Assembly (NCBI RefSeq): GCF_016907715.1
Contig: NZ_JAFBCM010000001.1
Coordinates: 4,278,001 to 4,342,000, forward strand
Origin: Tenggerimyces flavus
GTDB taxonomy: Bacteria > Actinomycetota > Actinomycetes > Propionibacteriales > Actinopolymorphaceae
Length of the DNA stretch: 64,000 bases
Reading direction: 5' to 3'
In this document: piece by piece, positions 56,130-63,466 of the stretch
Layout: each line of letters opens with the position of its first letter
Position numbering within the stretch: the stretch's first letter is position 1
Notes under the pieces: generated by a model
Databases searched by the model: none
The model's input: the letters and a program-made list of their open reading frames with translations, nothing else
What the model was told of the DNA's origin: nothing
Program-made: the position numbers and the translations under genes

Positions 56130-57160
56130 TGGGTATGAGGGCCGCGATCGCCGGCGCCAGCGGCTACGCGGGAGGCGAGCTGCTGAGGCTGCTGCTCCAG
56201 CACCCCGAGATCGAGATCGGCACCCTCACCGCGGGCAGCAACGCCGGCAGCAAGCTCGGTCAGCACCAGCCGCACCTCCTCCCGCTCGCCGACAAGGTCC
56301 TCGAAGACACCACCGCGGACACGCTGCAGGGCCACGACATCGTCTTCCTCGCCCTCCCGCACGGGCAGTCCGCGGCCATCGCGGCCCAGCTGCCGGACGA
56401 CACGATCGTCATCGACTGCGGCGCGGACCACCGCCTGGAGAACGAGGAAGACTGGCAGCACTGGTACCAGAGCGACCACGCCGGCACCTGGCCGTACGGT
56501 CTCCCAGAGCTCCAAGGCCAGCGCGAGAAGCTCAAGCAGGCAAAGAGAATCGCCGTCCCCGGGTGCTATCCCACCGTCGCCACACTCGCCCTCGCCCCGG
56601 CCATCCAAGCCGGCATCGCCGACGCCGACGACGTGGTGATCGTCGCCGCGAGCGGTACGTCTGGCGCCGGCAAGAGCCTCAAGCCGAACCTGCTCGGCAG
56701 CGAGGTCATGGGCGCGGTGTCCGCGTACGGCGTCGGCGGCACCCACCGCCACACCCCCGAGATCATCCAGAACCTCGGCAAGCTCACCGACGAAGCCGTC
56801 ACAGTGAGCTTCACCCCCACCCTCGCTCCCATGCCGCGAGGCATCCTCGCCACCTGCACGGCCAAGGTGAAAAGGGGCATCGATCAAGGCAGAGCGAGAG
56901 CCGCCTACGCCGCGGCCTGGGCCGGCGAGCCGTTCCTGCACCTGCTCCCAGAAGGCACCTGGCCCACCACCGCGGCCACCCTCGGCGCCAACACCCTGCA
57001 CGCACAGGTCACCGTCGACGAGCGAGCGCAAAGACTCGTCGCCGTCGCCGTGATCGACAACCTCACCAAGGGCACGGCCGGCGGCGCGATCCAGTGCATG
57101 AACCTCGCACTCGGCCTCCCCGAGACCACCGGCCTCCCCACGACCGGGCTCGCGCCATGA
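56129..57160 (+). CDS. argC: N-acetyl-gamma-glutamyl-phosphate reductase ArgC (probably leaderless)
   Basis: ArgC reduces N-acetylglutamyl phosphate to the semialdehyde, step 3 of arginine synthesis. The 343-residue protein has [19 protein letters not shown], the active-site cysteine in [14 protein letters not shown], and the C-terminal VVDEN-like [20 protein letters not shown] with [20 protein letters not shown]. No ribosome site precedes any of the three candidate ATGs (56123, 56129, 56135), and the promoter puts the RNA start at about 56129, so a leaderless start is likely. First gene of the arg operon; its stop overlaps the next start. Confidence 0.93.
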
Positions 57161-57564
57161 CCCAAGAGCGCAGCTGGTCCCTCCGCCGCTACGCCACGCC
57201 CGTCGCGGTCTGCAGGCTCGCCCCCGACGCCGACGTCCCCCAGTGGGCCAATGCGCCGACGCCGCTCTCAGCGATCGTCCGTACGGCGAACGAGCTCTCC
57301 CTCGTCTGTGCCGCCGACGCCGTGCCGAGCCAGGAACGCATGCTCGGCCCGTACGTCGCGTACGAGATCGCCGGCCTGCTCGACCCCGACCTCGTCGGGG
57401 TGCTCGCCGAGCTCCTCGAACCCCTCGCCGAGGCGAGCATCAGCGTCCTCACGGTCTCCACCTTCGACACCGACTGGGTCCTGGTCCCCGAACGCCAAGC
57501 CGACGCCGCCGACACCGCCTGGCGACGACGGCGTCACACGGTGCTCGACCACATCCCCGCCTGA
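57157..57564 (+). CDS. ACT-domain protein (CASTOR-like ACT_7 family) in the arginine operon
   Basis: A 135-residue protein with the two-ACT arrangement of the ACT_7 family: [40 protein letters not shown], and the conserved [29 protein letters not shown] block. Related ACT domains occur in the eukaryotic arginine sensor CASTOR1, where they bind arginine at the domain interface. Here the gene lies between argC and argJ, overlapping argC by ATGA, so arginine (or an intermediate) is a reasonable ligand. That is inferred from family and position. It has no catalytic motif. Confidence 0.85.
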
Positions 57565-57594: not shown

Positions 57595-58742
57595 GTGAGC
57601 GTCACCGATCCGAAGGGTTTCCGCGCCGCCGGCGTCACCGCCGGGCTGAAGCCGAGCGGCAAGCCCGACGTCGCCCTCGTCGTCAACGACGGCCCGTCGT
57701 ACGCGGCCGCCGCCGTCTTCACCCTCAACCGCTGCAAGGCCAACCCCGTGCTGTGGAGCGAGACCGCCGTCAAGGACGGAACGGTCAAGGCCGTCGTGCT
57801 CAACTCCGGCGGCGCCAACTGCTACACCGGCCCGGCCGGCTTCCAGAACACCCACGCCTCCGCCGAGCTCGTCGCCGAGAAGCTGGGCATCGGCGCGATC
57901 GACGTCGTCGTCTGCTCCACCGGCCTGATCGGCGAGCAGTTGCACACCGAGAAGCTCCTGAACGGCATCGCCGAGTCCGCCGACAAGCTCGCGACGACCG
58001 GCGGGCAAGATGCGGCGACCGCGATCATGACCACCGACACCGTCTCCAAACAGTCCACGTACGTGGGCGAAGGCTGGTCGATCGGCGGCATGGCCAAGGG
58101 CGCGGGCATGCTCGCGCCGTCCCTGGCCACCATGCTCGTCGTCATCACGACCGACGCCGACGTCGACCCGGTCACCGTCGACCTCGCGCTGAGAGCAGCC
58201 ACCAAGCAGACGTTCGACAGGCTCGACTCCGACGGCTGCATGTCCACCAACGACACGGTCCTGCTGATGGCCAGCGGCGCCAGCGGCGTCAAGCCGCCGT
58301 ACGACGCGTTCGCCCAAGCTGTCAAGGAAGTCTGCCACGGTCTCGCCCAGCAGCTGATGTCCGACGCCGAGGGTTCCGACCACGACATCGCGATCGAGGT
58401 CGTACACGCCGCCAGCGAGGACGACGCGGTCGAGGTCGGCCGTTCGATCGCCCGCAACAACCTGTTCAAGTGTGCGGTGTTCGGCAAGGACCCCAACTGG
58501 GGCAGGATCCTCGCCGCCGTCGGCACCACCAACGCCGCGTTCGACCCGGCCACGTTGGACGTCGCGTTCAACGGCGTCTGGATCTGCAAGAACGGCGAGC
58601 CCGGCGAGTCCCGCGACAAGGTCGACTTGACAGACCGCGAGGTCACCGTGACCGTCGATCTCAAAGCGGGCAACGAGACCGCGACGATCTGGACCAACGA
58701 CCTCACCCACGCGTACGTTCACGAGAACTCGGCCTACTCCAC

Positions 58743-58746
<4 letters not shown>
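57595..58746 (+). CDS. argJ: Glutamate N-acetyltransferase / amino-acid acetyltransferase ArgJ
   Basis: ArgJ transfers the acetyl group from N-acetylornithine to glutamate, recycling it, and in some bacteria also makes N-acetylglutamate from acetyl-CoA. The 383-residue precursor has [28 protein letters not shown] and the self-cleavage region [11 protein letters not shown], whose internal threonine becomes the nucleophile of the beta chain. The GTG start follows aaaggga. It overlaps argB by ATGA. Having argJ in the operon means the cyclic pathway is used. Confidence 0.96.
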
Positions 58747-62266
<3,520 letters not shown>

Positions 62267-62270
<4 letters not shown>

Positions 62271-63466
62271 CCGAGCGCATCGTGCTCGCCTATTCCGGTG
62301 GGCTCGACACCTCCGTGGCGATCGGCTGGATCGCCGAAGAGACCGGTGCCGAAGTGATCGCGTGCGCGGTCGACGTCGGCCAGGGCGGCGAGGACCTCGA
62401 CACGATCGCCGCGCGGGCCAAGGCCTGCGGCGCGGTCGAGGTGTCCGTCGTCGACGCCAAGGACGAGTTCGCCGAGCAGTTCTGCATGCCCGCCATGCAG
62501 GCGAACGCGCTCTACATGGATCGTTACCCGATCGTGTCGGCACTGTCGCGGCCGCTGATCGTCAAGCACCTCGTGGCCGCGGCCCGCCAGCACGGCGCGT
62601 CGACGGTCGCGCACGGCTGCACGGGCAAGGGCAACGACCAGGTCCGGTTCGAGGTCGGCGTCGGCGCGCTCGCGCCCGACCTGAAGGTGATCGCCCCGGT
62701 CCGCGACTTCGCGTGGACGCGGGAGAAGGCGATCGAGTACGCCGAGAAGCGTTCGCTGCCGATCGACGTGACGAGGAAGTCGCCGTTCTCAGTCGACCAG
62801 AACGTGTGGGGCCGCGCGGTCGAGACCGGCTTCCTCGAGGACCTGTGGAACGCGCCGACCAAGGACGTCTACGACTACACCGAGGACCCGACGCAGTGGA
62901 AGGCGCCGGACGAGGTCATCGTCACGTTCGACCGCGGCCTTCCCGTGGCGATCGACGGCGACGCGGTGACGCCGCTGCAGGCGATCCAGCTCCTGAACAA
63001 GCGCGCCGGCGCGCACGGCGTCGGCCGGATCGACATGGTCGAGGACCGTCTCGTCGGCATCAAGAGCCGCGAGGTGTACGAGGCACCGGGCGCGATGACG
63101 CTGATCACCGCGCACCACGAGCTGGAGAACGTCACGGTCGAGCGCGACCTCGCCCGCTTCAAGCGCCAGGTGGGGCAGCGCTGGACCGAGCTGGTCTACG
63201 ACGGGCTGTGGTTCTCGCCGCTGAAGTACGCGTTGGACGCGTTCCTCGCCGAGTCGCAGCAGCACGTGTCCGGCGACATCCGCCTCGAACTGCACGGCGG
63301 GAACGCGGTCGTCAACGGGCGCCGCAGCGAGAAGTCGCTGTACGACTTCAACCTCGCGACGTACGACGAGGGCGACTCGTTCGACCAGTCCTTGGCGAAG
63401 GGCTTCGTCGAGCTCTGGGGGCTGCCGAGCAAGATCGCCGCCAAGCGCGACCAGTCCGACAGCTAG
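62267..63466 (+). CDS. argG: Argininosuccinate synthase ArgG
   Basis: ArgG joins citrulline and aspartate with ATP. The 399-residue protein has the PP-loop [33 protein letters not shown] and [15 protein letters not shown]. The GTG start overlaps the argR stop. It is followed by the family C hairpin copy 3 rather than directly by argH, so the transcript may be reduced here. Confidence 0.97.

Follow-up and report, generated by a model that had tools for sequence, protein, structure and literature searches.

A predicted half-CASTOR protein encoded between argC and argJ in Tenggerimyces flavus and its possible role in amino-acid sensing

The arginine operon of the actinobacterium Tenggerimyces flavus encodes, between argC and argJ, a 135-residue protein with two ACT domains that is, as judged by its predicted structure, a half-CASTOR, i.e., one half of the animal arginine sensor CASTOR1, of the two-ACT-domain A9CJY8/CASTOR type. 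The reading preferred here, with a probability of roughly 0.5, is that this ACT protein is a detached amino-acid-sensing subunit of arginine biosynthesis that acts on acetylglutamate formation, the candidate ligands being arginine in first place and ornithine in second. The window, which is the whole stretch of 64,000 nucleotides that was analysed, includes the following features:

56135 to 57160, forward strand: argC, N-acetyl-gamma-glutamyl-phosphate reductase, 341 aa counted from the start codon used in the analysis (TIGR01850, 386.8 bits, cut-off 233.6)
57157 to 57160, forward strand: ATGA overlap of the argC stop and the ACT start, read from the sequence
57157 to 57564, forward strand: ACT gene (predicted half-CASTOR, stand-alone tandem-ACT protein), 135 aa (PF21631 and PF13840 over cut-off)
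57442 to 57444, forward strand: codon of S96, aligned by phmmer with CASTOR1 S111
57472 to 57474, forward strand: codon of D106, aligned by phmmer with CASTOR1 D304 (ACT4) and D121 (ACT2)
57595 to 58746, forward strand: argJ, ornithine acetyltransferase and possible N-acetylglutamate synthase (NF003802, 458.8 bits, cut-off 351; TIGR00120, 354.1 bits, cut-off 298)
58743 to 59636, forward strand: argB, acetylglutamate kinase (TIGR00761, 250.6 bits, cut-off 151.3)
59633 to 60823, forward strand: argD, acetylornithine transaminase (NF002874, 596.5 bits, cut-off 457)
60829 to 61746, forward strand: argF, ornithine carbamoyltransferase (NF001986, 400.1 bits, cut-off 306)
61734 to 62270, forward strand: argR, arginine repressor, start codon picked by hand (NF002880, 228.1 bits, cut-off 200)
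62267 to 63466, forward strand: argG, argininosuccinate synthase (NF001770, 589.8 bits, cut-off 334)

The gene order is thus argC-ACT-argJ-argB-argD-argF-argR-argG. The seven neighbours (ArgC, ArgJ, ArgB, ArgD, ArgF, ArgR and ArgG) each score over an NCBIfam cut-off, and no NCBIfam family matches the ACT open reading frame (ORF) itself. Its ATG lies inside the ATGA that closes argC, with which it shares 4 bp and through which the two genes are probably coupled in translation; the stop is at 57562-57564, and the GTG of argJ (57595) follows after 30 bp. The protein matches A9CJY8-like_N (PF21631) at residues 17-58 with 46.1 bits and ACT_7 (PF13840) at residues 75-118 with 53.5 bits (Pfam cut-offs of 27), which confirms the initial annotation of a 135-residue ACT_7 protein that overlaps argC by 4 bp and precedes argJ. 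Elsewhere in the 8.5-Mb genome, ACT_7 has only one other match, in a gene named from its sequence as an aspartokinase (L177:4774-6156). A promoter and terminator scan of the operon returned nothing that exceeds the shuffled controls.

The proposed relation to CASTOR holds at the level of sequence, as phmmer aligns the ACT protein with CASTOR1 at an E of about 1e-8; the closest solved relative is Atu0741 (1zhv), at 1.1e-11. An AlphaFold2 model built from an input alignment of 24 operon members reaches a pLDDT of 93.1 and a pTM of 0.86. In VIA-align, this model ranks closest to Atu0741 (Z 19.2 over 131 residues, rmsd 2.1 A) and then to VC0802 (1zvp, Z 13.6), followed by the CASTOR1 chains (Z about 11, over the N-terminal half, CASTOR1 residues 1-149), the regulatory domains of aspartokinases (Z about 8-10) and, lower, YdjB (9vp8, Z 7.2) and BT0572 (2f06, Z 7.1). 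Foldseek agrees, with 1zhv at an E of 5.1e-13 and a TMq of 0.87. The domain order, the chain of about 130 residues and the fold all fit the stand-alone A9CJY8-like/ACT_7 group, to which the protein belongs. As the model resembles one half of CASTOR1, two copies would form a CASTOR-like unit.

The candidate ligand pocket agrees with that of CASTOR1 in part. The CASTOR1 mutations that hurt arginine binding most are those of S111 and D304 (accessible sections of PMC5020642 and PMC5187391). S111A alone is described as abolishing binding in one study (PMC5020642, in the part available) versus raising the Kd to 9.68 uM in the other (PMC5187391, likewise), and F275A abolishes arginine binding (PMC5020642, same part). 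The ACT protein has equivalents of S111 and D304 in S96 and D106, and its V97, L75, G81, T102 and F103 are likewise identical to CASTOR1 V112, L273, G279, T300 and F301. CASTOR1 I280 and V281 become V82 and L83, and G274, F275, E277 and F303 differ, being D76, P77, L79 and T105, where D76, like L75 above, lies just beyond the aligned stretch and is positioned by ungapped extension of the phmmer alignment. D106 is an aspartate in 90% of the 94 members of the window's clade (lost in 9 of the 94), in 22 of 22 proteins of a second arg-associated group described below and in all 45 homologues that belong to neither arg group. The residue is therefore conserved throughout the family and is no indicator of arginine. 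In the pocket comparison with CASTOR1 suggested in the initial annotation, the two most sensitive positions are matched, those of F275, G274 and F303 differ, and the aspartate is not specific to arginine. The adjacent W107 is invariant in the window's clade (94/94) and is a tyrosine in the second arg group.

Homologues of the ACT protein match in 56 of the 394 sampled genomes of the window's class (58 matches). The operon-type loci, 24 with the window counted, all have the gene in the slot between argC and argJ; the other 34 homologues have no arg gene nearby at an E of 1e-5 (0/34), in loci examined with about 3 kb on each side, less at contig ends, and with two too weak for re-detection by tblastn. 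A scan of genome contigs extends the slot: among the best 80 of 192 relatives, argC is upstream and argJ downstream in 80 of 80, in an uneven sample retrieved with two peptide patterns conserved in the clade and with argC present only as a short remaining piece at one contig end (L065). The titles of these 80 include Nocardioides, Marmoricola, Pimelobacter, Pedococcus, Phycicoccus, Piscicoccus, a Microlunatus metagenome-assembled genome and others. The 94 distinct operon proteins group into one clade, with support of 99/95, in a tree built from 125 proteins. The tie to arg operons thus stands for the window's clade and fails for the family across the class, in which 34 of 58 matches lie at loci without an arg gene. 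In 19 close pairs picked by hand, dN/dS is 0.05-0.53, as expected under purifying selection; the highest values (0.45 and 0.53) come from pairs that include members without D106. The constant slot and these ratios argue that the ACT gene is more than a chance ORF. No relative of the protein was found in viral contigs. Two contigs of Nocardioides sp. GY 10113 (L072 and L083) each have the gene in an arg operon and encode identical ACT proteins, either because the operon is duplicated or as an effect of assembly.

The gene is also readily dispensed with. None of seven relatives from the window's family carries it (0/7). ArgJ is present in 29 of the 30 genomes chosen for lacking an operon copy, and 19 of the 29 have an argC-argJ overlap of 1-4 bp. 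The seven family relatives (L113-L115 and L117-L120) have a gap of 99-164 bp between argC and argJ, which may be a relic or serve in regulation. A quickly built ArgJ tree with 60 rows requires 9 gains or losses to explain the presence of the ACT gene, at least 4 of them forced by starred branches. The absence from relatives and the nine changes indicate that the gene is accessory and often gained or lost. In one genome (G033), the argJ match is in two pieces (L142:1498-2838), with about 170 extra in-frame bases between query residues 100 and 99, a possible insertion of 57 residues in ArgJ.

A comparison of arg operons across actinobacteria, as the initial annotation had advised, finds the slot kept in the window's clade and, in another class, a separate arg placement. 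In a sample of the phylum, a homologue is present in 29 of 296 genomes at an E of 1e-8; argC, argR or argG is nearby in 15 of 28 further loci from other classes, and all 15 belong to family f59. This second class (that of genome G438) is represented by 39 genomes, all of f59. A homologue is found in 26 of the 39 and has an argC-argR-ACT-argG context in 24 of the 26, where context means argC-argR upstream and/or argG downstream within reach of the contigs; G460, G665 and an additional copy in G540 do not fit this pattern. In the loci read, argJ is transcribed apart from the ACT gene, and at the G470 locus, as read by eye, argJ, argB and argD run opposite to argC. The best tree separates the two arg placements with 5 label changes, none of 200 bootstrap trees has just one change, and a single clade for both is not rejected by the AU test (p 0.286). 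These results, from a tree with 17 divergent homologues dropped, 32 of the 94 operon proteins kept and a bootstrap that had not settled, are compatible with one origin of the two placements or with two. At four second-class loci (L218, L222, L226 and L227), the arg cluster contains, directly beside the ACT gene, an ORF that resembles metal-dependent hydrolases and has a THTHNDHWDG-type motif seen by eye. In G683 (L237 and L240), two open frames that overlap take the place of a single ACT gene, through decay or sequencing error.

Eight of the 24 second-class genomes with an arg context encode the ACT protein and a GNAT acetyltransferase in frame in one ORF. Five fusions are GNAT-first (G559, G671, G617, G678 and G569) and three ACT-first (G627, G637 and G470), and the occurrence of both orders argues that ACT and GNAT function together. 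Several of the fusion genomes are drafts, with G617 and G470 in 2 and 3 contigs. Four more genomes (G673, G680, G449 and G683) have an unfused GNAT gene adjacent to the ACT gene, and GNAT homologues have a match in 17 of 23 chosen genomes. One of the twelve GNATs, tested against domain families, has PF00583 and generic matches, and falls in no specific NCBIfam family. Its assignment to a known acetylglutamate synthase was rejected, since none of these families is over cut-off for this one of the twelve (CG3035-type, 22.5 bits against a cut-off of 280). The short acetylglutamate synthase S-NAGS is likewise over cut-off in none of the 39 second-class genomes. Six weak matches occur, two of which (G438 and G410) are within about 5 kb of arg genes; by eye, the G438 match is part of an arsenic-resistance cluster. 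The GNAT-ACT fusions are a candidate new type of acetylglutamate synthase.

In the window's class, S-NAGS (NF005921) is over cut-off in 295 of 394 genomes. It is present in 5 of the 24 operon carriers (G055, G097, G135, G185 and G320) and over cut-off in none of the remaining 19, which all belong to the window's order, nor in the window's genome or any sampled genome of that order, carrier or not. ArgJ may therefore make acetylglutamate in the window's order; the five carriers with S-NAGS indicate that a link to ArgJ in the role of synthase does not hold for all carriers. A role of the ACT protein as a partner of S-NAGS was rejected, as these counts give no link either way. An N-terminal extension is reported for arginine-sensitive acetylglutamate kinases (PMC3329491, in the part available). 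The window's ArgB keeps this extension and a C-terminal stretch, and the ArgB of non-carriers looks alike. Second-class ArgB, inspected by eye at 30 loci (L257-L286), has neither stretch in carriers and non-carriers alike, so that arginine control may act elsewhere in that class. A role in replacing a lost arginine site of ArgB is not supported in the window's lineage, where the window's ArgB keeps both stretches, and in the second class these are missing from carriers and non-carriers together.

The mechanism proposed for the ACT protein would start with a dimer whose two copies lie next to each other, as the halves of CASTOR1 do and as aspartokinase regulatory domains do. Amino-acid sites would form at the interface from S96 in one chain and D106 in the partner chain, and there a pathway amino acid, arginine first and ornithine second, would bind and alter the docking of the ACT dimer on a pathway protein. 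The target would be acetylglutamate formation, by ArgJ in the window's lineage and by the adjacent or fused GNAT in the second class. Arginine itself is a possible ligand at somewhat less than even odds, and ArgJ as the direct target is more doubtful and put forward tentatively. The ACT gene may have come to lie next to argJ just once, long ago, and this adjacency argues only weakly for the target. Regulation of arginine-synthesis enzymes was raised as a possibility for CASTOR1 itself in the accessible part of PMC5020642. Against a sensor stand the nine of 94 members that keep the gene without D106, the replacement of F275 and other pocket residues and the dispensability of the gene. A further count against it is that, in the window's lineage, ArgR already senses arginine and ArgB probably does too.

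Other readings of the same data place the output of the protein elsewhere. The sensor may work through ArgR, the ligand-bound dimer helping or hindering the repressor in a transcriptional circuit. The sharing of a transcript by argR, argC, argG and the ACT gene in both arrangements fits this reading, as does argR directly upstream of the ACT gene in the second-class loci that have no GNAT; however, ArgR binds arginine by itself, the window's argR is four genes from the ACT gene and the GNAT fusions point to an enzyme, so that control through ArgR is considered unlikely. An action on ArgB that tunes or relieves arginine inhibition, as PII does in cyanobacteria, is rated similarly improbable. 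Control of acetylglutamate kinase by a small sensor has a precedent in PII-NAGK complexes (in the part of that literature consulted), and the window's argB is two genes downstream of the ACT gene. Against it, the N-terminal extension of ArgB looks alike in carriers and non-carriers (the C-terminal stretch is comparable in few carriers, since the loci end early), and the second-class ArgB without the extension is likewise the same in both.

The GNAT fusions bear on the preferred reading of a sensor of acetylglutamate formation and also on the idea of a sensor module for a protein acetyltransferase such as AAPatA, with lysine acetylation rather than acetylglutamate as the output. The ACT protein is fused to a general GNAT in eight second-class genomes, and an ACT-GNAT enzyme activated by Asn or Cys is on record (PMC6434083, accessible part); however, the ACT domain of AAPatA is of the classical type, with a DXPGXL motif, and N-terminal to the GNAT (PMC6434083, same part). 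The tandem CASTOR-type ACT, the two fusion orders, the placement in arg operons and the absence of a GNAT from the window's protein further make this output very unlikely. It is just as improbable that the ACT protein is a ligand-free structural or assembly partner, kept in some lineages after loss of its pocket. Such a partner would account for operon members that lost D106 (9/94) and yet all kept W107; the 90% that keep D106 and a fold that is that of known amino-acid sensors count against it.

Homologues outside arg operons widen the range of possible ligands for the proposed sensor. On plasmids of Burkholderia and Paraburkholderia (L288 and L289), an ACT_7 homologue follows hutH and genes for an amino-acid ABC transporter, with one permease annotated as histidine HisM. 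Plasmid copies in Peptoclostridium, Ruminococcus and Selenomonas have mixed neighbours, including a glutamate-5-semialdehyde dehydrogenase and a histidinol-phosphatase-family protein. Such non-arg neighbours hint at amino-acid sensing in general and not of arginine alone.

In the open-access literature searched, no function is described for these bacterial proteins, in keeping with the initial annotation, and their placement in arg operons is not reported; a CASTOR-type ACT-GNAT fusion was also not found there. A broader and rather speculative proposal, which we regard as more doubtful than not, is that the half-CASTOR is the arginine sensor of bacterial arg operons, occurring as an unfused dimer alongside ArgJ in the Propionibacteriales and their relatives and as the GNAT-fused feedback domain of a new N-acetylglutamate synthase in the second class, with CASTOR1 the duplicated and fused descendant of an arginine-reading sensor of this bacterial type. 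If true, CASTOR-like bacterial proteins that so far lack a described function would gain a pathway, a testable ligand and a candidate partner, the beginnings of an animal arginine sensor would come into view, and arginine synthesis, a pathway used in industry, would have an extra layer of control.

Among known systems, Atu0741 (1zhv) and VC0802 (1zvp) share both Pfam domains, length and fold with the window's ACT protein. The PF21631 namesake A9CJY8 is, we presume, Atu0741. No function was found for either protein in a literature search partly drowned by the plant actin ACT7. CASTOR1 and CASTOR2, the mTORC1 arginine sensors of animals, share the tandem ACT fold and the S111 and D304 equivalents; by contrast, CASTOR1 has four ACT domains per chain and the ACT protein two, which places it outside CASTOR proper. 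GATOR2, which CASTOR1 binds, is not known from bacteria. The regulatory ACT domains of aspartokinases have the fold in common and bind Lys or Thr where two ACT domains meet (PMC5187391, accessible part), whereas the Pfam scan detects no kinase domain in the ACT protein and the genome's aspartokinase is a separate gene. Actinobacterial AAPatA joins ACT to GNAT as the second-class fusions do and acetylates acetyl-CoA synthetase (PMC6434083, in part). The PII proteins of cyanobacteria and plants, as far as the PII-NAGK literature was consulted, control arginine synthesis as small, separately encoded sensors; they are an unrelated trimeric family, with no P-II domain in the ACT protein by Pfam at E up to 10.
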